Positions 31,550 to 44,143 of a stretch of 64,000 nt of DNA are shown piece by piece. Position 1 is the first letter of the stretch, and each line of letters opens with the position of its first letter. The DNA comes from Streptomyces sp. NBC_00457 (GTDB taxonomy: Bacteria; Actinomycetota; Actinomycetes; Streptomycetales; Streptomycetaceae), in the NCBI RefSeq assembly GCF_036014015.1, contig NZ_CP107905.1:4340001-4404000 (forward strand). Reading direction: 5' to 3'. The position numbers were made by a program, and so were the translations under genes. The notes beneath the pieces were generated by a model that saw only the letters and a list, made by a program, of their open reading frames with translations, ran no database searches and was not told the DNA's origin.

Positions 31550-32032
31550 ATGTCCACCACCGAAAAGACCGCCGCCGGTATCGGCCCCGTGGAGGGCGAG
31601 TCCCTCTACGGCGTCGACAACCCGGCGCCGCTGATCGAAGCCCCGCGCAAGCGGACCAAGAAGACCCCGAAGTCCACACGGGGCAACTTCGAGATGGCCG
31701 CCTGGCTGTTCATGCGCCTGTCCGGCGTGGTGCTGGTCGTCCTGGTCCTCGGCCACCTGCTGATCCAGCTCGTGCTGGACGGCGGCGTGTCGAAGATCGG
31801 CTTCGCCTTCGTGGCCGGCCGCTGGGCCAGTCCCTTCTGGCAGGTCTGGGACCTGCTGATGCTGTGGCTGGCGATGCTGCACGGCGCCAATGGCCTGCGC
31901 ACGGTCATCAACGACTACGCGGAGCGCGCGAACACCCGGCTGTGGCTGAAGGGCCTGCTCTACACCGCCACGGTGTTCACCATCCTGCTGGGCACGCTGG
32001 TGATCTTCACCTTCGACCCGAACATCCGCTAG
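31550..32032 (+). CDS. sdhD: succinate dehydrogenase hydrophobic membrane anchor subunit
   Basis: The 160-residue protein has a hydrophilic 45-residue N-terminus and three membrane helices: [39 protein letters not shown] and [19 protein letters not shown]. The His in GHLL and the [16 protein letters not shown] loop are typical of actinobacterial SdhD. It pairs with SdhC to hold complex II in the membrane. It starts at ATG 31550, close behind sdhC, and is followed after 19 nt by sdhA. Confidence 0.94.
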
Positions 32033-32051
32033 ATCCGGGGCTACGAGACCA

Positions 32052-33806
32052 ATGAAGATCCACAAGTACGACACAGTCATCGTCGGCGCGGGTGGCGCCG
32101 GCATGCGCGCCGCCATCGAGTCGACGAAGCGCAGCCGGACCGCGGTGCTGACCAAGCTCTACCCGACCCGCTCCCACACGGGCGCCGCGCAGGGCGGTAT
32201 GGCCGCCGCGCTCGCGAACGTGGAGGAGGACAACTGGGAGTGGCACACCTTCGACACGGTCAAGGGCGGTGACTACCTGGTCGACCAGGACGCCGCCGAG
32301 ATCCTGGCGAAGGAGGCCATCGACTCGGTCCTCGACCTGGAGAAGATGGGCCTGCCGTTCAACCGCACGCCGAACGGCACGATCGACCAGCGCCGCTTCG
32401 GCGGTCACAGCCGGAACCACGGCGAGGCCCCGGTCCGCCGCTCCTGCTACGCGGCCGACCGCACCGGCCACATGATCCTCCAGACGCTGTACCAGAACTG
32501 CGTGAAGGAGGGCGTGGAGTTCTACAACGAGTTCTACGTCCTCGACCAGCTGATCACCGAGGTCGACGGCGTGAAGCGGTCGGCCGGCGTGGTGGCGTAC
32601 GAGCTGGCCACCGGCGAGATCCACGTCTTCCAGGCGAAGGCCGTGATCTACGCGTCCGGCGGCTGCGGCAAGTTCTTCAAGGTGACGTCGAACGCGCACA
32701 CGCTGACGGGTGACGGCCAGGCGGCGGTCTACCGTCGCGGGCTGCCGCTGGAGGACATGGAGTTCTTCCAGTTCCACCCGACCGGCATCTGGCGCATGGG
32801 CATCCTGCTGACGGAGGGCGCCCGCGGTGAGGGCGGCATCCTCCGCAACAAGGACGGCGAGCGCTTCATGGAGAAGTACGCGCCGGTGATGAAGGACCTG
32901 GCGTCGCGTGACGTCGTGTCCCGGTCCATCTACACGGAGATCCGCGAGGGCCGCGGCTGCGGTCCCGAGGGCGACCACGTCTACCTGGACCTCACCCACC
33001 TCCCCCCGGAGCAGCTGGACGCCAAGCTGCCCGACATCACCGAGTTCGCCCGCACCTACCTGGGCATCGAGCCGTACACGGACCCGATCCCGATCCAGCC
33101 CACCGCGCACTACGCGATGGGCGGCATCCCGACGAACGTCGAGGGTGAGGTGCTGGCCGACAACACGACGGTCGTTCCCGGCCTGTACGCGGCGGGCGAG
33201 GTCGCCTGCGTCTCCGTCCACGGCGCGAACCGCCTCGGCACCAACTCGCTGCTGGACATCAACGTGTTCGGCAAACGGGCCGGCATCGCCGCCGCCGACT
33301 ACTCGCAGACGGTCCAGCACGTCGAGCTGCCCGAGGACCCGGCTTCGCTGGTCGTCGCGCAGGTCGAGCACCTGCGCTCCTCCACCGGCACGGAGCGGGT
33401 GTCGACCCTGCGGCGCGAGCTGCAGGAGACCATGGACGCGAACGTCATGGTGTTCCGCACCGAGCAGACGATCAAGACGGCGGTCGAGAAGATCGCGGAG
33501 CTGCGCGAGCGCTACAAGAACGTCTCGATCCAGGACAAGGGCAAGCGGTTCAACACGGACCTGCTGGAAGCCATCGAACTCGGCAACCTCCTGGACCTGG
33601 CCGAGGTCATGGCGGTCTCCGCCCTGGCCCGCAAGGAGTCCCGCGGCGGTCACTACCGCGAGGACTACCCGAACCGCGACGACGTCAACTTCATGCGCCA
33701 CACCATGGCGTACCGCGAGGTGGGCGACGACGGCACGGAGTCCATTCGTCTCGACTACAAGCCGGTCGTCCAGACCCGCTACCAGCCGATGGAGCGTAAG
33801 TACTGA
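32052..33806 (+). CDS. sdhA: succinate dehydrogenase flavoprotein subunit
   Basis: The 584-residue protein oxidises succinate to fumarate with covalently bound FAD. It shows the dinucleotide motif [14 protein letters not shown], the flavinylation His in [16 protein letters not shown], the substrate-binding HPTGI segment and [20 protein letters not shown], and the C-terminal [21 protein letters not shown]. Length and motifs are standard. Its stop overlaps the sdhB start (TGATG), so translation is coupled. Confidence 0.97.
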
Positions 33807-34585
33807 TGGCAACCCCGACCCTGGACAAGGCGGACGCGGCCGGCACGCCTGAGCCCGGCTTCGCCGACTCCCCGTACATCACGGCCACCTTCCGCATCCG
33901 CCGCTTCAACTCCGAGGTCTCGGCGGAAGCGGCCTGGGAAGACTTCCAGGTGGAGATCGACCCGAAGGAACGCGTCCTCGACGCCCTCCACAAGATCAAG
34001 TGGGAAGTGGACGGCACGCTCACCTTCCGCCGCTCCTGCGCCCACGGCATCTGCGGCTCCGACGCGATGCGGATCAACGGCAAGAACCGTCTGGCCTGCA
34101 AGACGCTGATCAAGGACCTCAGCCCCGAGAAGCCGATCACGGTCGAGCCCATCAAGGGCCTGACGGTCCTCAAGGACCTGGTCGTCGACATGGAGCCGTT
34201 CTTCCAGGCCTACCGCGACGTCATGCCCTTCCTCATCACGAAGGACACGAACGAGCCGACGCGCGAGCGCCTGCAGACCGCCGAGGACCGCGAACGCTTC
34301 GACGACACCACGAAGTGCATCCTCTGCGCCGCCTGCACGTCCTCCTGCCCGGTCTTCTGGAACGACGGCCAGTACTTCGGCCCGGCGGCGATCGTGAATG
34401 CCCACCGCTTCATCTTCGACAGCCGTGACGAAGCGGGCGAGCAACGCCTGGAGATCCTCAACGACAAGGACGGCGTCTGGCGCTGCCGCACGACCTTCAA
34501 CTGCACGGACGCCTGCCCACGCGGCATCGAGGTCACCAAGGCGATCGCGGAGGTCAAGAAGGCGCTGATCACGCGCCGCTTCTGA
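33806..34585 (+). CDS. sdhB: succinate dehydrogenase iron-sulfur subunit
   Basis: The 259-residue protein carries the three cluster motifs of complex II: 2Fe-2S in SCAHGICGSDAM with the later NRLACKT Cys, 4Fe-4S in CILCAACTSSCP, and 3Fe-4S in CRTTFNCTDACPRG. It passes electrons from the SdhA flavin to quinone at the SdhC/D interface. A decayed second copy of its last 45 codons plus terminator lies 4.4 kb downstream (38939-39147). Confidence 0.97.
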   Translation: MATPTLDKADAAGTPEPGFADSPYITATFRIRRFNSEVSAEAAWEDFQVEIDPKERVLDALHKIKWEVDGTLTFRRSCAHGICGSDAMRINGKNRLACKTLIKDLSPEKPITVEPIKGLTVLKDLVVDMEPFFQAYRDVMPFLITKDTNEPTRERLQTAEDRERFDDTTKCILCAACTSSCPVFWNDGQYFGPAAIVNAHRFIFDSRDEAGEQRLEILNDKDGVWRCRTTFNCTDACPRGIEVTKAIAEVKKALITRRF

Positions 34586-34602
34586 TCTTCTCCGCCTGAC
34601 TT

Positions 34603-34640
34603 GAGGGCCCTGTTTCCGTCACTTCGGGAACGGGGCCCTC
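34603..34640 (+). terminator. sdh operon terminator
   Basis: GAGGGCCC-T-GTTTCCG (34603-34618) faces CGGGAACGGGGCCCTC (34625-34640), a long imperfect hairpin 17 nt after the sdhB stop. A mutated form of the same hairpin follows the sdhB relic at 39106-39147. Confidence 0.8.
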
Positions 34641-34653
34641 TGGCGTTGGGCGG

Positions 34654-35340
34654 TCAGTAGTGGCCGCTTTCCGGATCCTCGCCGTCTTCGTAATCCTCGG
34701 CGAGCCGAAGCCCGAGATCGGATTCCCAGTCCAGCGCCCACTGGCGCAGCTGGGTGATCGCCTCGGGCCCGAGCCCGTATGCGGCGAATTCCTCGTCGCT
34801 CACCCAGACGACGCTCTCCAGCCGGTCCCGCAGCTCCCTGAGATCGAACTCGGCTTCATCGCGCAGCCCCAGCTGCTCGAGTTCGATCACGGAGTAGTAC
34901 CGGCAGGCCGCATGTACGTCGATCACGTCCCGCGGCAGGCCACGATCACCGAGCGCGCGCACCTTCATGACCACCAGATCCTCAAGACTGACCACCGGCC
35001 CGACGTCCATGGCAACGGGCCTACGGGACAGGGCCTCCTTGAGGAGGTCGACCTCGCAGGCTTCCCTGCTGTCCGGGTCCGTGACGAGCAGCCTCGCCTT
35101 CAGCGGCCTGACATCGACCACGGCAACCGCCCAGCCCCTGCTTCGCAGACCGTCCGCGAGACGCGGCACAATGTCCGTCATCGACGCGGGGTGCCGGGTC
35201 GCGAAGTCCAGGTCCTGGCTCAGGCGAGTGACCAGGCCGTGAGCCTGCACCGCGTACCCGCCGGCCAGGGCCAGCTCGTACGCTTCGCCCGCCTCCAGGG
35301 CATCCGCGAGCAGACGGCAATGCAGCGCGGGCAGCTTCAT
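34654..35340 (-). CDS. AbiEii/AbiGii-type nucleotidyltransferase (toxin-like)
   Basis: The 228-residue protein has the nucleotidyltransferase core LALAGGYAVQAHGLVTR followed by LSQDLDFATRHP, the G-G...D-x-D pattern of AbiEii toxins, then EVDLLKEA with the third acidic residue. SLEDLVVMKVRALGDRGLPRD with VIDVHA follows. Family members act as toxins that modify tRNA or block growth during phage infection. ATG 35340 overlaps the preceding stop (ATGA). It is the promoter-distal gene of a two-gene unit, as expected for antitoxin-then-toxin order, and lies inside the sdhB-bounded island. Confidence 0.82.
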   Translation of the reverse strand: MKLPALHCRLLADALEAGEAYELALAGGYAVQAHGLVTRLSQDLDFATRHPASMTDIVPRLADGLRSRGWAVAVVDVRPLKARLLVTDPDSREACEVDLLKEALSRRPVAMDVGPVVSLEDLVVMKVRALGDRGLPRDVIDVHAACRYYSVIELEQLGLRDEAEFDLRELRDRLESVVWVSDEEFAAYGLGPEAITQLRQWALDWESDLGLRLAEDYEDGEDPESGHY

Positions 35341-35687
35341 GCGGCACTGGAGCGGCGGAGTTCGGGGAAGGCTTGCTCCCACGTCTCGCGCACGCCACGC
35401 CCCAGCATCTTGCGCAGGATCGGCCAGTGACGGACGAGATGCTCGCGGCTGAGGTAACGCACGAAGTCATCCCGCGAGCCGTTGTTCAGGACGATCCGGT
35501 ACAAACCCAGCAGCAGCTTCACGTCGCCAAGGTCGAAGACACGCAGCCCGGACCACGCAAGCTCCAGCGGAAGCTCTACGTCCCCGCCCTCGGGACCGGC
35601 CAGCTCGTCGAGCGCGGTCGGCAGCCGCTCCGTCCCGTAACCCCAGCGGGAGGGCACTCTGCTGCTTCTGTCTGCGTACTCGGTCAC
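35337..35687 (-). CDS. probable partner (antitoxin candidate) of the AbiEii-like protein
   Basis: The 116-residue product starts at GTG 35687 (VTEYADRSSRVPSRWGYGTE) and contains LPTALDELAGPEGGDVELPL, VFDLGDVKLLLGLYRIVLN and LVRHWPILRKMLGRGVRETW. No winged-helix AbiEi domain is obvious, so it is not a standard AbiEi antitoxin. It is coupled by an ATGA overlap to the nucleotidyltransferase and invariably precedes it in this layout, which suggests a functional pair. CATACT nine nt before the GTG may be a -10 box, giving a leaderless message. Confidence 0.6.
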   Translation of the reverse strand: MTEYADRSSRVPSRWGYGTERLPTALDELAGPEGGDVELPLELAWSGLRVFDLGDVKLLLGLYRIVLNNGSRDDFVRYLSREHLVRHWPILRKMLGRGVRETWEQAFPELRRSSAA

Positions 35688-35767
35688 GACAGCAGTATGC
35701 CGGTACTGCTCCGCATGCGGCCCGCGCGAACGGCTCCGCCCGTACGAACCCGATACCGCTGCCCGAT

Positions 35768-36294
35768 TCAGCACCCGGCCCTCCTCCCACCGACCTCGAA
35801 CCAGAGCAGCTTCCCGGCGCCCCTGTCGAGCAGGCCGTCACCGATGGGCCAGCCTCCCCATGAGTCGGCGTACTCCTGGACGAGCAGCAGGCCATGCCCG
35901 CTTGTGACGTCCGCCGGCGGGGGCGGGACGCGGTCGCCGGGCGGCTTGTCGAAGGGGGCGGGGATGTGGGAGCTCGTGTCCCATACGCCGGTCCGCAGGC
36001 GTCCGTCGCCCAGGGCGGTCAGCCGGAGGGACGAGGGCCCCGTGTGTGGCGGTAGGCGTTCGTGACCAACTCGGACGTCAACAGCTCGACGACGTCGACG
36101 ACTTCGTGCATGCCGTGACCGTTCAGAGTGGCCCGTACGGTCATACGTGCGACACGTGCGGCTCGGGGGTCATGGGGGAGGCGGAGGGCGTACACCCAGG
36201 TGTCAGGCAGGGCTACGGTGCCCATGGAAACCTTCAGCAGTCTCACAGGGAAGGGGGCTCGGGTTCGCTCAACTGCCGTGCCCGGCGGTGGCAT
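35768..36294 (-). pseudogene. ATP-binding regulatory protein (SpoIIAB/RsbW-like), frameshifted
   Basis: The N-terminal half reads DTWVYALRLPHDPRAARVAR and VVELLTSELVTNAYRHTRGP, the HATPase_c N-box. At about position 36043 the frame runs into a stop. A one-base shift at the CCC run restores SSLRLTALGDGRLRTGVWDT, PPPADVTSGHGLLLVQEYAD with SWGGWPIGDG, and LLWFEVGGRR, the G-box half, ending at 35768. So a -1 (or +2) change in the GGGGCCC region has split one gene. It could be a real mutation or a sequencing error. It is divergent from the HTH/DUF397 pair with which such ATPases usually travel. Confidence 0.7.
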
Positions 36295-36372
36295 TGCCTG
36301 GGTTGGTGCGCTTCCGGCTTCTGGGTGGGGCGAGTTGGCGATGTGGGCGCTACGCTAACGCGGCATTGAGAT

Positions 36373-36396
36373 ACTTCTCAGTGAATCCAGAGAAGT
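36373..36396. promoter_or_regulatory. inverted repeat between the ATP-binding and HTH genes
   Basis: ACTTCTC (36373-36379) and GAGAAGT (36390-36396) form an inverted repeat with a 10-nt spacer, and TGAGATACTTCTCA overlaps its left arm. It lies about 60 nt before the HTH gene start and is a plausible operator for that regulator. Confidence 0.45.
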
Positions 36397-36458
36397 GCAT
36401 CGGCAATTACCCCGTGTGAGGTACCCGAGAGCCGCGCCGCGGCCGGAAAGGAGGCCCC

Positions 36459-37310
36459 TTGCCACCCGCCAGCACACCGACCCTGCGACAACGGCGTTTG
36501 GGGGCTGAACTGCGCAAGGCTCGCGAGCGAGCGGGGCTGACGGCCACTGGCGCAGCCGCAAGACTCGGCGTCAACCAAGGGCGGGTCAGCATGATCGAGA
36601 CAGGGCGCAGCCCCCTCAGCGCCGACCGTGTCCGCTCACTCGCACGCACCTATGACTGCGGAGACCCCCGCCTCGTGGATGCCCTCGCCACGATGGCGCA
36701 ACGCCAGACGCGCGGCTGGTGGGACAGCTACCGCGACTACCTGCCGGTCGGCCTCATCGACCTCGCCGAGTTGGAACACCACGCGGCAGCCCTGCGCGTC
36801 GCCCTGGTCATTCACATCCCCGCCCTGCTCCAGACGACCGACCACGCCCGCGCCCTCTTCAAGGAGGCGGTGCCTGAATTGCGGCAGTACGAGATCGAGC
36901 ACCGCGTCAGCCACCGGATCAAGCGACAGGGAATCCTCCACCGCGAGGACCCGCCCCCGTACACAGCCGTGCTCCACGAGTGCGCACTGCACATGGGGTA
37001 CGGCGGCCCTGCTACCGTGCGCGCCCAGCTCCAGCACCTTCTGGACATGAGCGAGCTGGACCACGTCTCCGTAAGAGTGATCCCGTTCGGCAAGGGCTCC
37101 TTTCCCGGCACCGGACAGTCCGTCGACTATCTGGCGGGGCCGGTTCCCCAGCTGGACACTGTTCAGCTGGACACCCATCACGGCTGCGAGTTCCTGGACG
37201 CCGAGGCCCAATTGGAGAAGTACCGACTCGTACTCGACCGCATGGAGGCGAACGCCCTCAAGCCCGCAGAGTCCCGTGACCTGATCCACCGCATCGCCCA
37301 GACCGTCTGA
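36459..37310 (+). CDS. helix-turn-helix regulator with DUF5753 domain
   Basis: The 283-residue protein has an XRE-type HTH (LGAELRKARERAGLTATGAA, ARLGVNQGRVSMIETGRSP) followed by a DUF5753 domain (IPALLQTTDHARALFKEAVP, DYLAGPVPQLDTVQLDTHHG, LDRMEANALKPAESRDLIHR). These regulators are expanded in Streptomyces and are linked with DUF397 proteins and RsbW-like ATPases, the bldB/whiJ-type systems. TTG 36459 is chosen because of the strong AAAGGAGG at 5 nt. It is followed after seven nt by the DUF397 gene. Confidence 0.92.
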   Translation: MPPASTPTLRQRRLGAELRKARERAGLTATGAAARLGVNQGRVSMIETGRSPLSADRVRSLARTYDCGDPRLVDALATMAQRQTRGWWDSYRDYLPVGLIDLAELEHHAAALRVALVIHIPALLQTTDHARALFKEAVPELRQYEIEHRVSHRIKRQGILHREDPPPYTAVLHECALHMGYGGPATVRAQLQHLLDMSELDHVSVRVIPFGKGSFPGTGQSVDYLAGPVPQLDTVQLDTHHGCEFLDAEAQLEKYRLVLDRMEANALKPAESRDLIHRIAQTV

Positions 37311-37317
37311 GGTAACC

Positions 37318-37500
37318 GTGCCCGAACTCCACTGGAAGAAGTCCACTTACAGCCCCGACGCCTCGAACTGCGTCGAGATAGCCACCACCCCGACCGTCAT
37401 CCACATACGCGACTCCAAAACCCTCACCGGACCTCACCTCACGTTCCCACCCACCACTTGGGCGGACTTCCTCTCGCACGCGGCGGACGCGAGGCGCTGA
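37318..37500 (+). CDS. DUF397 family protein
   Basis: The 60-residue protein is a canonical DUF397: LHWKKSTYSPDASNCVEIA, HIRDSKTLTGPHLTFPPTTW and a C-terminal ADFLSHAADARR. In whiJ-like loci this small protein is thought to antagonise or cooperate with the neighbouring HTH-DUF5753 regulator. GTG 37318 has GAGGTAACC upstream, in the short gap after the regulator stop. Confidence 0.92.
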   Translation: MPELHWKKSTYSPDASNCVEIATTPTVIHIRDSKTLTGPHLTFPPTTWADFLSHAADARR

Positions 37501-37875
37501 GCGCGAAGCACACTCGCTCGGGTGATCTGGGCGCCAAGTTCTTTCACGTTCCGGGCCAAGGGCACCTACCTGGTGCAGGGCGGGAAGGTGGTCGATGAGG
37601 TCCGGCGCTCGTAGCTGGGCGGTGGCGGCGTCGGCTCTTGAAGGCCGGCTGCGGCACTGCATCCGGCCCGCCGTCCATCGGCCCGGTGGGAGCGATGGGC
37701 GGACGCCTCAGCACGACGGTACTGCGTCAACAGGTGTGCATTGACAAGGAATTCGTGCTGATCACCATTTGTGGGGCGCAGGTCACCGGGACGGTCATTC
37801 AGGGGCTGTAGTCACTTCCGCCCAGCATTGGGCAGGGCGAAAGCGCAGCGGGCTGGACCGTGCGGCCGGGTGGGC
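37501..37875. other. non-coding region with a possible gene-end relic
   Basis: No intact gene is seen. One short frame near 37521-37613 reads SFTFRAKGTYLVQGGKVVDE and ends VRRS-stop, which looks like a protein C-terminus stripped of its body. GCCCA-GCAT-TGGGC near 37821-37834 is a small hairpin. The region is compatible with deletion scars in an accessory island. Confidence 0.35.
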
Positions 37876-38277
37876 TCACACGGTGGCGAACCACAGATCG
37901 TTTGCCGAGAAGGTTTCCATCTCCAGTTCTCGGAGCTTCTCCTCCTCGGCGAACGCCCGCCCGAGCACGGCGATATCGCAGCGTATGACTGGAGCGTCGA
38001 ACGACGGAACAAGAATCACCGTTCCGTCCTGGGCGAGGCCTTGCAAAACTCCTGAAATGCGTTCCTCGACGACGATCAGTCGCAGCGTTGTGGACACCAT
38101 CGCCACGCGAGCGTCCCGGACCAGGACGCTCAGCCATTCCTCGTCAGCTTCCTTGTCCCAGTCGATAACCCCTCCGACCGATCGGGCCAGATAGTCGGCG
38201 ACCTCGACTGCGACCTCTTCGCGCCAGGTGACCGGCGGATGACCCAACCGCGCCAGCGCATCCGAGACATCGATCAC
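37876..38277 (-). CDS. hypothetical protein, possible immunity-type
   Basis: The 133-residue protein starts VIDVSDALARLGHPPVTWRE and contains ADYLARSVGGVIDWDKEADE, LRLIVVEERISGVLQGLAQD, VILVPSFDAPVIRCDIAVLG and an acidic tail ELEMETFSANDLWFATV. It is acidic, cytoplasmic and without known motifs; acidic small proteins in such islands are often immunity proteins, but nothing proves it. GTG 38277 has an excellent GGGGAGG box, and that box overlaps the opposite-strand gene remnant. Confidence 0.6.
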   Translation of the reverse strand: MIDVSDALARLGHPPVTWREEVAVEVADYLARSVGGVIDWDKEADEEWLSVLVRDARVAMVSTTLRLIVVEERISGVLQGLAQDGTVILVPSFDAPVIRCDIAVLGRAFAEEEKLRELEMETFSANDLWFATV

Positions 38278-38278
38278 T

Positions 38279-38683
38279 GTGCACCTCCCCTCGTGGGCGG
38301 ACCGCGACATCGTCCTCGCCCAGGACGTCTCCGGCGACGGCGTCACCGACACCGTCTACCGCAGAGCCACCTCCGGCAGACTCATCCTCCGCAAGGGCAT
38401 CGCCGCCGACAGCGGTGGAGTCGACCTGAACTCCCTGTCCACCGCGGCCGACTCCTCCGGCGGCACCGACACGGAGTACAGCGCCTCCGGCTGGGCCGTC
38501 GCCAGCGTCCCCTTCCTGCTGGGCACACCCGACGCCAACAACGACAACATCCCCGACATCTGGGCCGTACGGTCCGACGGATCCGTCCGCTTCCACCCCG
38601 GCGGCAGAGCCACCACCTCGAGCACTGGGACCGCGGTCGTCGGCCCCACCACGTGGTGGCAGACGCGCATCGCGGTCGGCTGA
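38279..38683 (+). pseudogene. truncated FG-GAP/VCBS repeat protein (3' remnant)
   Basis: The frame reads ADRDIVLAQDVSGDGVTDTV, then TPDANNDNIPDIWAVRSDGS and GPTTWWQTRIAVG-stop, two or three FG-GAP blades with DxxGDGxxD and DxNNDNxPD calcium loops. There is no signal peptide or start: the first possible GTG lies inside the promoter of the opposite gene. This is the C-terminus of a secreted repeat protein whose 5' part has been lost. Confidence 0.65.
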
Positions 38684-38738
38684 GGAGGAGACCCGCCAAC
38701 GGCTGTCCCGCCGTTCATCTGCCAGTGCGGGTCCTCTC
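38682..38738 (+). terminator. hairpin after the FG-GAP remnant
   Basis: GAGGAGACCCGC (38682-38693) and GCGGGTCCTCTC (38727-38738) pair with a small bulge and enclose a second short palindrome. It directly follows the stop of the remnant. Confidence 0.55.
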
Positions 38739-38938
38739 CGTCAGATCGATCCCCGTACCGAAGGGGCCGGAGACGTTGAGCCCGCGTGATAGGTGCCGGT
38801 GACGCCGTATGAGTTCGTGCTTGGTCCAGCTCGTAAGGGTGCACAACGGAGATGCCCGGCCAGTGGCGGGTCTGCCGTGGTCCTGCGATGGCCTCAGCCG
38901 GAAACACCAGCACGTCCTCGAATCACGAGGAACGCCCA

Positions 38939-39147
38939 CCTGGAGACCCTCAACGACAAGAATGGCGTGTGACGTTGCCGTATGACGTTCAACTGCGCGG
39001 ATGCTTGCCCACGCGGGGCTGAGGTCACCAAGGCGATCGCGGAGGTGAGAAGGCGCCGATTACTCGGCGGTTCTGATCTCCCTTCCGAGCAAGTACGCGT
39101 AACAGCTGAGGGCTCCGTTTCCGGTGTTGCCGGAGGTGGGGCCCTTC
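38939..39147 (+). pseudogene. decayed duplicate of the sdhB 3' end and terminator
   Basis: In the sdhB frame this reads LETLNDKNGV-stop-RC, RMTFNCADACPRGAEVTKAI and AEVRRRR, against LEILNDKDGVWRCRTTFNCT, DACPRGIEVTKAIAEV in the intact gene. A TGG codon has become TGA and a one-base deletion follows AEV. Positions 39021-39046 are identical over 26 bases to 34529-34554. Similarity continues past the stop through the terminator hairpin (GAGGGCTCCGTTTCCG ... GGGGCCCTTC). It marks the far boundary of the 34.6-38.9 kb accessory segment. Confidence 0.85.
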
Positions 39148-39236
39148 ACTGTTTTGTCATGTTCGGGCACTACTGAGGGATGGATTCCGCCCGCACACTC
39201 CCCTCGGGAAGCGCTGGAGGCGCCGGGGGGATTGCC

Positions 39237-39755
39237 GTGGTGCGCAGGCACGCACAACGTCACGGCTTCGGCGCCGCGGCAAAGGAAGCTCATTTCGTCG
39301 CGGCGCCGCTGCTGGCGGCGGCGGCGCTCGGGCTGGCCGGTGTGGTCGCGGGTGCCGACGACGAGTTCAGATGGCCGGGCGTCATCCTGCTGCTGCTCGT
39401 GGCCACGTCGATGGCTCTCATCGCCAGTATTCAGATGTCGTACTACGCGCTGCAGTTCAAGTTCACCTGGGAAGAACGGGAAGCGCGGCGGAAGGCATAC
39501 GACTGGGTCGAGCCAACGGAGGAAGCGAAGACGGAGATCCTTAAGCAGTCTCAGATCGCGTACGAAGACAACCTCCGGTACGCCGGGATTGTTTTCAATG
39601 CCGGAACATTGATGCTCGGGCTCGGTATCGCTGCCGCACTCGTGCCGCCGGATTGTGGCGAGCAGTTCCGCTGGCGAATTGCCTCGGCGATCCTCGTTCT
39701 GCTGTGCACTGTCGCCGACGCTGTGTGGGTGTGGTTCCTGGTCAAGAAATGGTGA
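39237..39755 (+). CDS. hypothetical four-helix membrane protein
   Basis: The product (172 residues from GTG 39237) has four membrane segments: FVAAPLLAAAALGLAGVVAG, WPGVILLLLVATSMALIASI, YAGIVFNAGTLMLGLGIAAA and IASAILVLLCTVADAVWVWF. A conserved-looking cytoplasmic loop, FKFTWEEREARRKAYDWVEP then TEEAKTEILKQSQIAYEDNL, separates the pairs. The GTG has GGGGGG at good spacing; an in-frame ATG at 39180 has its purine box too close. I do not recognise the family. Codon use is slightly less GC-rich than in the core genes, suggesting accessory origin. Confidence 0.65.
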   Translation: MVRRHAQRHGFGAAAKEAHFVAAPLLAAAALGLAGVVAGADDEFRWPGVILLLLVATSMALIASIQMSYYALQFKFTWEEREARRKAYDWVEPTEEAKTEILKQSQIAYEDNLRYAGIVFNAGTLMLGLGIAAALVPPDCGEQFRWRIASAILVLLCTVADAVWVWFLVKKW

Positions 39756-39785
39756 TTCGCGCAACGGCTCACAAAGGGAGGGAAG

Positions 39786-40106
39786 ATGTACCAAGAAGTG
39801 GTACTACCCGGATTCGCGGTGCCACCACATCCCTGTCCAGGCTGCGGAGAAACCGTGCCGCGCGGGTACGGGAACCTGCTAGTACCGCGCTCAGTCAGGG
39901 AACGGCGGATACCCATTCAGATCGAAAAGAGAGAGATTGATCCGCTGGAGCCCGGCGACAGCGTGGACCACCTGGGGAATTGCCCATACCGGAGCGTCCA
40001 CCCGATTCTGTTACTCGCGTGCCGGAGCGGCGCGGAGATGAACGCATTGCTGGCGGACCTCAATATCACTCCGTCACAAGCAGCGGGCACCGACACCCCC
40101 GGCTAA
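39786..40106 (+). CDS. hypothetical small protein with a CPxCG zinc-like motif
   Basis: The 106-residue product begins MYQEVVLPGFAVPPHPCPGC and continues GETVPRGYGNLLVP. It later has DHLGNCPYRSVHPI and LLACRSGAEMNALLADLNIT. The first CPxC plus the later cysteines could form a zinc site. ATG 39786 follows GGGAGGG. No family is recognised. It sits in a run of lower-GC accessory-type genes after the sdhB relic. Confidence 0.55.
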   Translation: MYQEVVLPGFAVPPHPCPGCGETVPRGYGNLLVPRSVRERRIPIQIEKREIDPLEPGDSVDHLGNCPYRSVHPILLLACRSGAEMNALLADLNITPSQAAGTDTPG

Positions 40107-40159
40107 CATGACGCCGCGGTACCCCGAGGTTCCGCGGATTCGGGAGGCGGCGCGCGGCG

Positions 40160-40846
40160 ATGACATCTGCCAAGGGGGGTGGCCGTGCCTCGCGGGTTCG
40201 AATATGGGTGGGGATACTCGCAGTGGCGACCGGGGCACTGCTCGCCGGAGATCCCGCCACTCGTACACAAGCGACGCTGTCGTGGGCAGCCCGGTGGTGG
40301 CCATGGGCCTTGCTCGCTCTGGCGTCAGTGAACCTGTTGAGGTCGGCCGTCCCGGCCGGTTCGCTCATCGGTCCCGTGACGCTCGGCGCCGTTGCCGTGG
40401 TCGGCCTGGCTGTTACCCACGGACTGGACGGGCACATCGCACGGGACCTGCTGGCGCCTACCCTCCTGGTCGTGGCGGGGACAGCGCTCGTGCTGTCAGC
40501 CGTGGGCTCCGGCCATCGCTCCAACTGGACCCGCCTGCTGGCCACGGGTGCCGTCATCGTGCCCGCGGGCACGGGTCCGCTGCTGACCGCACGGGCCGTC
40601 CTCGGTGAGCTCCGGGCGGATCTGCGTCAGTTGGAGAACGACGTAGAAGTGAACGTCACGGCTGTCGCCGGGCACGTACATCTCATCGTCCCACCCACCA
40701 GCACAGTGCACGTTCATACGCTGGGCGCCCTCCTCACCCGGGTTACTCCGCCGGACTCCCGACCTGACGAATCCACGCCTCCAGAGGGGGCGTTCACAAT
40801 TCACGTCCTAGGCATCTGTGGAGCCGTGAGCATCGCCCGTGGATGA
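40160..40846 (+). CDS. membrane protein with LiaF-like C-terminal domain
   Basis: The 228-residue product has four or five membrane helices (VRIWVGILAVATGALLAGD, WWPWALLALASVNLL, LIGPVTLGAVAVVGLAV, APTLLVVAGTALVLSA) and a C-terminal beta-rich part with GHVHLIVPPTSTVHVHTLGA and FTIHVLGICGAVSIARG. That end resembles the beta-strand domain of LiaF-type stress sensors. ATG 40160 is used. The 3' end overlaps the converging gene by 39 bp. Confidence 0.6.
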   Translation: MTSAKGGGRASRVRIWVGILAVATGALLAGDPATRTQATLSWAARWWPWALLALASVNLLRSAVPAGSLIGPVTLGAVAVVGLAVTHGLDGHIARDLLAPTLLVVAGTALVLSAVGSGHRSNWTRLLATGAVIVPAGTGPLLTARAVLGELRADLRQLENDVEVNVTAVAGHVHLIVPPTSTVHVHTLGALLTRVTPPDSRPDESTPPEGAFTIHVLGICGAVSIARG

Positions 40847-41815
40847 GGAGTGCAATCCGGACGCGAGCGGTCCATCCCGATGGTCGTAGGGAAGACGGGA
40901 GCTGGGTCGGCCCGCGAAGAACGCCGAAACCCGCCAGAACGTCTCGGCTTCGTTCTCTTGATCCGGCAGGGGATGATGCAGCGCCTCCAGCAGATCGAAC
41001 CGGTGCAGGTCGTACACAATGTGCATCAGACCCGCGTACGCCTGTGCCGCCGTCACTGCTCCCTTGTACGCCACCGTGATCAGCACCAGCGCCATCAGTG
41101 GCAGCCAGCGGGCACCCGGCTCGTCATACAGCGCCACGGCCGCGACCGTTCCCGAACCGAGGAAGCTCCAACAGAGGTTGACTGCTGCGTCGAGGGCGGT
41201 CCGGGCGGACCGCAGCGCCGCGGCCAGGCGGTCGGAAATCTGCATGTGTATGCGCGGCCACGAGGTCAGAGTCGCCAGACCGTAGCGCTCGCCGGCGCTT
41301 AGCTCCCCTGCCCGCAAGGCGTTGCCGAGCGCAGTGGGAAGGAGGTCGTCCTCGAACGGTCTTGCGGCCAGCCGCCTCGCTGCGTCGGCCGCAACCCGGT
41401 GGGAGTTGGGATCCCGGGCGGACAGGGCCTCGGTCCGCCGACGGAGCGTCCGCCCACGGCGACGCTGCAACTCCGTCAGTACGCCTGCCAACCCGGCAGT
41501 GAACGGCCACCGGTCCCAATACCCCTCCCAAACCCGTACGGCCCGCACCTGGAAGGGATAAAGCAGCATCGCAAGTACGGCGGAGCACGCACCCATGACC
41601 AACAGGGCTCCGGCAGTCGCGGCGGGGTCCGACGGCAGTGCCACACTCCAGTGACTTCGGCCCACGAAGCTCCCGGCACGCACCAGCGCATAGACGCACG
41701 TGACGAAGAGCGCGCACGGCACGAAGTGCACAGCCAGCACCCGTCGCACGAGCTGCCTCCCCCTGAGCTCCCTCGCCCCCATACGCCTCTCAATGCACTT
41801 CAGTATGGCTGTCAC
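40808..41815 (-). CDS. hypothetical membrane protein
   Basis: The 335-residue product has two N-terminal helices (VRRVLAVHFVPCALFVTCVY, AGALLVMGACSAVLAMLLYP), a long basic cytoplasmic region (RRRGRTLRRRTEALSARDPN, ERYGLATLTSWPRIHMQISD) and two more helices (NLCWSFLGSGTVAAVALYDE, LPLMALVLITVAYKGAVTAA). No catalytic motif is evident and I do not know the family. GTG 41815 is the longest start; ATG 41782 with a GAGAGG box is a good alternative. Convergent overlap with the preceding gene is 39 bp. Confidence 0.6.
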   Translation of the reverse strand: MTAILKCIERRMGARELRGRQLVRRVLAVHFVPCALFVTCVYALVRAGSFVGRSHWSVALPSDPAATAGALLVMGACSAVLAMLLYPFQVRAVRVWEGYWDRWPFTAGLAGVLTELQRRRGRTLRRRTEALSARDPNSHRVAADAARRLAARPFEDDLLPTALGNALRAGELSAGERYGLATLTSWPRIHMQISDRLAAALRSARTALDAAVNLCWSFLGSGTVAAVALYDEPGARWLPLMALVLITVAYKGAVTAAQAYAGLMHIVYDLHRFDLLEALHHPLPDQENEAETFWRVSAFFAGRPSSRLPYDHRDGPLASGLHSSSTGDAHGSTDA

Positions 41816-41944: not shown

Positions 41945-42355
41945 ATGTCAGATGACGAGTCGTACGAGCTGCTCGGTTTCGACAATGTGCTGCTGCCCGT
42001 CGGGGACCTCGGTGAGGCCGTCGACTTCTATGAGCGGGCCGGGTTCGCGGTGGCGTTCCGGTTCGACGAGGCCGGGATCGCGCTGCTGAAGGTCGGGGGC
42101 GAGACGCCGGGGATTCTGCTGCGGGCCGAGGAGGAGTTCGGGCACCGGCCGCCGACATGGCCCTCGCCCAAGGTGTGGCTGGAGGTGCCGAACGCCAAGA
42201 TGGCCGCCCAGGCGCTGCTCGGTGCCGGTATCGCCCTGCTCGACGAGCCGTTCTCCGTGGCCACCGGCTGGACCGTCGAGATCGCCGACCCGTGGGGGAA
42301 CGTCATCGGGCTCACCGACTACACGAAACGGCCCGAGCTCGCACGGAGGGCCTGA
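41945..42355 (+). CDS. VOC (glyoxalase/bleomycin-resistance-like) family protein
   Basis: The 136-residue protein has the paired beta-alpha-beta-beta-beta modules of the VOC superfamily: FDNVLLPVGDLGEAVDFYER with AGFAVAFRF, then KVWLEVPNAKMAAQALLGAG and TVEIADPWGNVIGLTDY. The Glu in the last strand and a residue in VWLEV are the usual metal-site positions. The substrate is unknown. It starts at ATG 41945 and precedes the twin operators at 42396-42454 without sharing an obvious operon. Confidence 0.85.
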   Translation: MSDDESYELLGFDNVLLPVGDLGEAVDFYERAGFAVAFRFDEAGIALLKVGGETPGILLRAEEEFGHRPPTWPSPKVWLEVPNAKMAAQALLGAGIALLDEPFSVATGWTVEIADPWGNVIGLTDYTKRPELARRA

Positions 42356-43393: not shown

Positions 43394-44143
43394 GTGCCTG
43401 CGAACAACGACGGCCCCGATGAGGGCAGTACCCCGAGCAAGTCCGAGCAGACCCGCGCGGTGATCCTGGAGACGGCGATGCGGCTCTTCCAGGAGCGGGG
43501 GTACGACAAGACCACCATGCGGGCCATCGCCCAGGAGGCCGGAGTCTCCGTCGGCAACGCGTACTACTACTTCGCCGGCAAGGAACACCTGATCCAGGGC
43601 TTCTACGACCGGATCGCCGCCGAGCACCAGGCGGCGGTCCGGGAGGTCCTGGACCGGGAGACGGGTCTGGAGGCGCGGCTCGCGGGCGTCCTGAAGGCGT
43701 GGCTCGACGTCGCACAGCCGTACCACGAGTTCGCTGTGCAGTTCTTCAAGAACGCCGCCGATCCCGACAGCCCGCTCAGCCCCTTCTCCCCGGAGTCGGA
43801 GCACGCGCGCGTGGAGGCCATCTCCGTCCACCGCGAGGTGCTCTCCGGCGCTACGAAGACCAAGGTCCCGGAGGAACTGCGGGACATCCTCCCCGAGTTG
43901 ATGTGGCTCTCCCAGATGGGGCTCGTCCTGTACTGGATCTTCGACCGGACCGAAGGACGCGAGCGGAGCTATCGCCTGGCCGAGCGAGGGGCACGGCTCA
44001 CCGCGCTCGGCGTGTCGCTGGCCCGCTTCCGGGTGCTGCGGCCGCTGGTGCGGGAGGTGCATGAGCTGTTCACGGACTTCCTTCCCGGGATGACGAAGGT
44101 GCTGACGGAGCCGGGGGACAGCAAGGGGCGCCGGGGCGAGTGA
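43394..44143 (+). CDS. TetR-family regulator, likely repressor of the DCC operon
   Basis: The 249-residue protein has a TetR N-terminal domain (RAVILETAMRLFQERGYDKT, TMRAIAQEAGVSVGNAYYYF) and a C-terminal helical domain (VLKAWLDVAQPYHEFAVQFF, DILPELMWLSQMGLVLYWIF). It follows the DCC gene by 11 nt at GTG 43394 and so is probably in the same operon, giving feedback through the twin TTGAACRCGTTCAA sites. The ligand is unknown. Confidence 0.9.
   Translation: MPANNDGPDEGSTPSKSEQTRAVILETAMRLFQERGYDKTTMRAIAQEAGVSVGNAYYYFAGKEHLIQGFYDRIAAEHQAAVREVLDRETGLEARLAGVLKAWLDVAQPYHEFAVQFFKNAADPDSPLSPFSPESEHARVEAISVHREVLSGATKTKVPEELRDILPELMWLSQMGLVLYWIFDRTEGRERSYRLAERGARLTALGVSLARFRVLRPLVREVHELFTDFLPGMTKVLTEPGDSKGRRGE

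Follow-up and report, generated by a model that had tools for sequence, protein, structure and literature searches.

Integration into the 3′-end of a gene, with replacement of that end, is known from e14 and phage 21 in the icd gene of Escherichia coli. An arrangement of similar outline, an intact sdhB followed on the same strand by a displaced and damaged copy of its own 3′-end, is present in Streptomyces sp. NBC_00457, in a stretch of 64,000 nucleotides referred to here as the window (G000:C1:4340001-4404000). The window lies within a single-contig genome of 10.8 Mb, with completeness 100 and contamination 1.83. The original prediction explained the damaged copy, here called the relic, by integration of an accessory island into the 3′-end of sdhB. 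In a survey of hotspots, signs of mobile elements were missing from half of them, and recombination events were 50% more numerous in the flanking core genes (Oliveira et al. 2017, PMC5635113). A report on double-strand-break repair in Streptomyces describes end joining that captures DNA, giving insertions of 30 bp to 18.8 kb (PMC5869714). Varied accessory content between the same core genes and recombination in the flanking gene, here sdhB, are both present at this locus, and the relic is likely to be a recombination scar at which two alternative hotspot contents were spliced end to end without an integrase.

The duplicated end of sdhB

The last ∼141 nt of sdhB (34447-34588) recur on the same strand at 38939-39079, at a spacing of 4.49 kb, with 84-85% identity, an identical run of 26 bases and one base missing. 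An in-frame TGA and the single deleted base break the reading frame. The relic scores 169 under the scoring that gives 31 (plus strand) and 32 (minus strand) for the best other matches of the sdhB end in the window, confirming the damaged repeat that had been predicted. A direct repeat of the gene end (84%) is thus found at both borders of the island, and weak sdhB similarity possibly begins at 38926, upstream of the relic start. Across the 10.8 Mb genome the two copies of the sdhB end score 381 and 150 bits; the next match, at 37 bits, is at noise level, and no third copy was found.

The terminator had also been predicted to be repeated, and this was not confirmed. Both 3′ regions finish in a hairpin-like stretch, and no relation between them as mutual copies was detectable, as they align at 16.5, no better than shuffled versions do against the 3′ regions of other genomes (maxima 21 and 17.5). 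The region downstream of the relic belongs to another lineage. It scores 53 against Streptomyces sp. RP5T and 46 against S. pseudovenezuelae, while the next best of 76 scores 28.5 and shuffled sequences reach at most 17.5. Both RP5T and S. pseudovenezuelae carry the M2 module of four open reading frames (ORFs) that follows the relic. Because the best matches of the flank are M2 carriers, the flank and the M2 module appear to form a single DNA segment, a further hotspot version that would have entered at its own sdhB.

The duplicated end is rare. In genus-wide searches, which scored two candidates per genome only, the sdhB end was present in 295 of 295 genomes, with a second match at E 1e-8 only in the window genome and in G099. 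When the relic was the query, two matches were found in 7 of 392 genomes, the window genome included. Second sdhB matches in G099 (contig 54) and G340 (146 kb) were considered as relics and rejected, being 715-758 nt long and hence further sdhB-like genes; those in G147, G150, G153 and G242 cover 27-38 nt and look like chance.

A local repeat test covered the same strand downstream of sdhB, to the VOC gene or for 14 kb, in 37 other genomes, and revealed no clear second sdhB end. Thirty-five of these genomes scored below their highest control, G212 equalled it (34) and G097 was just above (34 vs 32), compared with 169 in the window. No sdhB end above controls was found when G296 and three others were extended to 33-54 kb, nor was there a second sdhB end at E 1e-3 in 22 loci where sdhB is followed by M2. 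Recurrent use of the sdhB site with the same crossover point therefore has no clear case in the 37 genomes, the 22 loci (0/22) or the four extended stretches (0/4). The arrangement of the window was found in no other genome examined, and it is thus not the common state of all relatives, which would have spoken against an insertion.

A viral collection contained no exact match to one degenerate pattern of the sdhB end. An unverified ‘Bacteriophage sp.’ scaffold, MT836661.1 (L121), carries an sdhB end (84.6%) and sdhA-like sequence, and forms a long-branch row in the sdhA tree; as the alignment also extends over sdhA, this record is probably a bacterial fragment. The sdhB end also matches 15 plasmid records (Rhodococcus, Arthrobacter, Tsukamurella, Sinorhizobium) at 60-90% identity.

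Alternative contents between sdhB and the VOC gene

The gene content between sdhB and the glyoxalase/VOC gene differs among the 40 genomes compared, and two of them (G231 and G340) have no query gene downstream of sdhB. In the 29 of 37 genomes with both borders in the stretch, the distance from sdhB to VOC ranges from 176 to 12497 nt. One kind of content is M2, which directly follows sdhB in G242, G049 and G063. When GTDB genomes were scanned with an alignment of M2d, 23 loci were recovered, and G242, G063 and G049 recur among them as identical records. In 22 of the 23, all Streptomyces, one complete sdhB is followed by M2a, with another query gene between them in L210. The remaining locus, L209 from Spirillospora, contains M2 and has no sdhB in the stretch. 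The uninterrupted junction that had been called for in relatives is thus present in G242, G049, G063 and the 22 M2d loci, and these represent the empty site whose absence would have favoured a simple duplication. Because of these junctions, the block at 34.6-38.9 kb is an insertion relative to the sdhB-M2 relatives; this part of the original prediction stands, and only the integration mechanism is weak.

The second kind of content begins with the AbiEii gene. The predicted AbiEii-like pair is half supported, since AbiEii itself was identified and the 145-aa partner matches no family. The frameshifted ATPase was borne out by comparison with the single ORF of G122, and the pair of HTH and DUF397 genes was confirmed (Table 1). 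Some part of 34650-38938 was matched in 114 of 392 genomes at E 1e-60, with the ATPase-HTH part in most among the matches listed. The fullest counterpart is on contig 49 of G122 (41.9-56.7 kb; L172, L173), which includes an AbiEii pair and ATPase, HTH and DUF397 genes and where 34684-37686 is matched at 92% and 38285-38684 at 88%, the two parts lying 11.4 kb apart. The gap contains an 83-aa ORF, a 2428-aa RHS/PT-HINT gene and most of the 1186-aa FG-GAP gene. ‘LamG’ is an informal label only, with Pfam Laminin_G_3 below the cut-off.

This G122 block adjoins MFS-transporter (Pfam MFS_1) and HEM4 genes. No second copy of the sdhB end was detected in G122 at E 1e-3. In the window genome the same MFS and HEM4 flanks, at 6.630-6.634 Mb, enclose a different 3.4 kb. 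Related genes occupy the sdhB-VOC spot itself in other genomes. In G108 the order is ATPase, HTH, DUF397, RHS, FG-GAP and VOC, in G296 it is RHS, FG-GAP and VOC, and in G350 it is RHS, FG-GAP, Uma2 and VOC. As the G122 counterpart is fuller and parts of it are at this spot in G108, G296 and G350, the window block has the appearance of an RHS/FG-GAP locus reduced by deletion. At 37876-38352, where G122 has the RHS locus, the window contains a 158-aa minus-strand ORF without a family match, which might be the remains of an immunity-type gene or not a gene at all.

Both kinds of content can occur together. In S. lincolnensis L4 (L201) one spot has the order sdhB, M2a, M2d, Uma2, AbiEii, AbiE2, ATPase, HTH and DUF397, that is, both window blocks in another order and no second sdhB end, on a contig that ends before the right border. 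G314 has M2 and AbiEii in one spot. The window is 93.5% identical to S. lincolnensis L4 over 32001-34647.

Where the two blocks meet in the window, the last 134 codons of the FG-GAP gene are followed by a Uma2 remnant (to 38857) and then by the relic, from 38939 or 38926. The remnant scores 51-56 against the Uma2 genes of G350, G244, S. lincolnensis and G242, with shuffle maxima of 32 and 25. Uma2 and sdhB are both cut within the gene at this joint and have no homology to each other, though later decay could blur the exact point.

To the right of the VOC gene, the segment 42340-44125 is wholly or partly present in most Streptomyces compared and unmatched in the closest relatives, G022 and G122, which run from 42339 directly to ∼44126-44132.

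Table 1. Features of the window from sdhB to the VOC gene.
Feature	Position	Strand	Remarks
sdhB	33806..34585	+	intact, 259 aa; domains confirmed; mosaic, lincolnensis/canus-like to 34435, other type from 34466
sdhB 3′ end duplicated as relic	34447..34588	+	
sdhB 3′ region, terminator-like hairpin	34590..34647	+	type common downstream of sdhB in other Streptomyces
AbiEii-like nucleotidyltransferase	34654..35382	-	PF08843, E 4e-12
AbiEii partner ORF	35337..35774	-	145 aa, no Pfam/NCBIfam match; 146 aa in G122
HATPase_c_2-like gene	35771..36294 (outer limits approximate)	-	split over two frames; single 175-aa ORF in G122
HTH_31 + DUF5753 regulator	36459..37310	+	
DUF397 protein	37318..37500	+	
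Unmatched stretch	37687..38284		no nucleotide match at E 0.01 in loci then fetched
FG-GAP/DNRLRE protein, last ∼134 codons	38285..38684	+	1186 aa in G122
Uma2 C-terminal remnant	38718..38857	-	G350 has Uma2 at same place, after FG-GAP, before VOC
Joint, truncated Uma2 / truncated sdhB′	38858..38938		
Relic sdhB′ 3′ end	38939..39079	+	in-frame TGA, one-base deletion
3′ flank of relic	39080..39166	+	RP5T / S. pseudovenezuelae type
M2 module	39180..41815		four ORFs, no Pfam match
M2a	39180-39755	+	
M2b	39786-40106	+	
M2c	40160-40846	+	
M2d	40808-41815	-	
Glyoxalase/VOC gene (PF00903)	41945..42355	+	conserved right border; homology with other genomes from ∼41930

Origin of the relic

Two hotspot forms can be written from these comparisons. 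The first, H1, which is reconstructed from several genomes, would be sdhB - AbiEii/ATPase/HTH/DUF397 - RHS gene - FG-GAP - Uma2 - VOC, and the second, H2, sdhB - M2a-d - VOC. The window would then hold a shortened H1, without RHS and the greater part of FG-GAP, followed head to tail by H2. Since H1 ends within Uma2 at the joint and H2 starts there within a second sdhB, the relic is read as the left end of the H2 DNA.

Either of two routes probably led to this structure. In the simplest, one join connects H1 (sdhB to Uma2) with H2 (sdhB′ to VOC): DNA of one variant would enter a cell carrying the other and be exchanged by homologous recombination within sdhB or near the VOC gene, and the non-homologous end of the incoming DNA would be sealed by end joining. 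In the second, an H1 fragment would first close into a circle at Uma2/sdhB′, after which a single crossover would place it in sdhB; this could also account for the switch of allele type in sdhB described below and for the mixed relic, if part of the repeat were converted. By either route the intact sdhB would be kept and the truncated copy would decay, and no site-specific integrase would be required.

The alleles of the two ends bear on their ancestry. Differences between sdhB and the relic are concentrated at third codon positions (15/22, p 0.0009), which means that the relic was not copied recently from the window sdhB and that the two diverged under selection on at least one copy. Markers were defined from a set of 11 sequences (G140, S. 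lincolnensis, S. pseudovenezuelae, S. canus and others) picked mainly by similarity over the body of sdhB. The window sdhB carries the alleles of this set at 30 of 31 body markers and at none of the 8 markers from 34466 on. Its allele type therefore switches between 34435 and 34466, beside the start point of the relic at 34447, a pattern that shows recombination inside sdhB close to the relic start. At the same 8 markers the relic has the alleles of the set at two, both at its 3′-end. The 5′-end of sdhB (33831-33885 in the window) varies in block-like types among Streptomyces, and the window belongs to the type seen in the lincolnensis/canus set, though its wider neighbourhood is closest to G022.

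Over the body of sdhA and sdhB the closest genomes are G140 and G242, yet these tie last for the sdhB end (87.3%, rank 34 of 37). A view of the window sdhB end as foreign and delivered by an element, based on this tie, was considered and dropped. Among the genomes fetched, G022 (92%) and G122 (90%) are closest over most of 16-34 kb, and the sdhB end of G022 is 97% identical. Since G022, one of the two closest over most of this region, shares the sdhB end, neither the direction of transfer nor the resident variant can be read from these data.

Several observations weigh against the splicing of two hotspot contents. The complete H1 order is found at sdhB in no single genome examined, being a composite of G122 (elsewhere in the genome), G108 and G350, and the M2 content representing H2 in the window is only ∼72% identical to that of G242. 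Of the 31 body markers, 22 lie in one block (33831-33885) and, because the set was chosen mainly by body similarity, agreement over the body is circular and only the allele switch is informative. The marker set is not one clade in the sdhA tree (5 changes), a quick search with 24 of 57 branches open. The near coincidence of the switch (34435-34466) with the relic start (34447) also fits a one-point strand exchange. The relic is of its flank's type at 34573/34576 and beyond, and not at the six markers in 34466-34552 (138 nt only); because its left part lacks the marker type of its flank (0/6), it may be a mosaic or derive from an unsampled type. An A at 34519 is common to sdhB and the relic and present in 0 of 60 others, which hints at common descent or gene conversion between the two. 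The different block order in S. lincolnensis L4 also fits tandem duplication with loss.

Such a tandem duplication within one lineage, doubling the segment from sdhB codon ∼214 to Uma2 head to tail with differing losses in each copy, is an unlikely origin. The presence of both blocks in one spot in S. lincolnensis L4, and of M2 with AbiEii in G314, agrees with it, as do 34519A, seen in sdhB and the relic only, and the Uma2/sdhB′ joint, which is of the head-to-tail type. However, further clean deletions would be needed in each copy, and the excess of third-position differences excludes a recent event, though not an old one. The relic flank is also of the RP5T/pseudovenezuelae type, whereas the sdhB 3′ region is of another type.

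Site-specific integration, as originally predicted, is likewise improbable. An element with an sdhB end in its attP would have inserted at ∼34447, restored sdhB and displaced the native end, with later loss of the integrase. The topology of an intact gene and a displaced end is as expected, the empty sdhB-M2 sites in relatives are consistent with it, the allele switch lies beside the start of the repeat, and the relic continues into a flank of M2-carrier type. Against it, the left part of the relic does not have the allele type of that flank, no clear second sdhB end was seen in the 37 genomes, the four extended stretches or the 22 M2 loci, and the same cargo is found in G122 without an sdhB end. 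In addition, the right end of the cargo is a truncated Uma2 gene, and both sides of the supposed insertion are alternative contents of one variable spot. The topology and the insertion relative to relatives thus survive from the original prediction, and the use of sdhB as an integration site is not supported.

No recombinase family was detected among the 10 window ORFs scanned with Pfam, four of them also with NCBIfam, or among five ORFs of the G122 counterpart (four in NCBIfam, the RHS gene in Pfam). It is possible that an integrase went with the deleted part of the block. Hotspot ORFs of other genomes were also scanned (110 of 175 predicted plus AbiEii, 111 in all), and at least one integrase (G296) and one RepSA (G350) are among the matches listed, which comprise the first 25 of 46 Pfam families and the first 25 of 35 PHROGs families. 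The existence of a phage-type integrase in the hotspot of G296 is in favour of integration. G296 and G350 have no sdhB end above controls within 53-54 kb, and the attachment sites of the RepSA and integrase elements were not found. The genes are a pSAM2-type RepSA gene in G350 (L112 14095-15840) and a phage-type tyrosine integrase gene in G296 (L120 10505-12262), both in the sdhB-VOC spot. There are no tRNA genes in the window that could serve as attachment sites. One tRNA-Gln call was made in the G108 spot (L099:5473-5563, inside a predicted ORF) and none in nine other loci scanned. That sdhB 3′-ends in Streptomyces are a rare attachment site for elements bringing a replacement sdhB end, and that the window is a decayed case in which the integrase disappeared along with the RHS part, is quite doubtful.

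Chance similarity or an assembly artefact is hardly credible, since, although misassembly of mixed strains can create duplicated ends, the relic scores 169 against 31-32 elsewhere in the window of a single-contig genome with the completeness and contamination given above, and its own decay and distinct flank show that it is not a copied read.

Relationship to known systems

Word searches of the open-licence literature found no paper on sdhB as an integration site, which is no proof of absence. Integration at icd is similar in outline. As with e14 and phage 21, the window pairs an intact gene at one border with a truncated end at the other, but no integrase was found and no recurrent use of the site was seen; in addition, the cargo occurs elsewhere without a gene end and a truncated Uma2 gene lies at the joint. 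An intact gene with a displaced end is by itself no proof of site-specific integration.

RHS and polymorphic-toxin loci are related in content. The G122 counterpart has an RHS gene with a pretoxin HINT domain, and related genes are found in G108, G296 and G350, whereas in the window copy the RHS gene is gone and only the end of the neighbouring FG-GAP gene is left. The joint of unrelated sequences resembles end-joining capture in Streptomyces (PMC5869714). There, capture was induced and the DNA endogenous, whereas the event in the window would be old and natural and is deduced from sequence alone.

Hotspots without mobile elements (PMC5635113) share with the window varied accessory genes between the same core genes, the frequent lack of an integrase and recombination in the flanking core genes. 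The window differs in having two contents in tandem and in retaining a piece of the flanking core gene at the joint. Accessory spots without mobile elements may thus grow by stacking two alternative contents rather than by replacement, with the truncated piece of the flanking core gene recording the exchange. Partial core-gene ends beside hotspots could be used to date exchanges with few other traces and to establish their direction. The scar in the window is informative about how hotspots grow and is probably not a new integration system.

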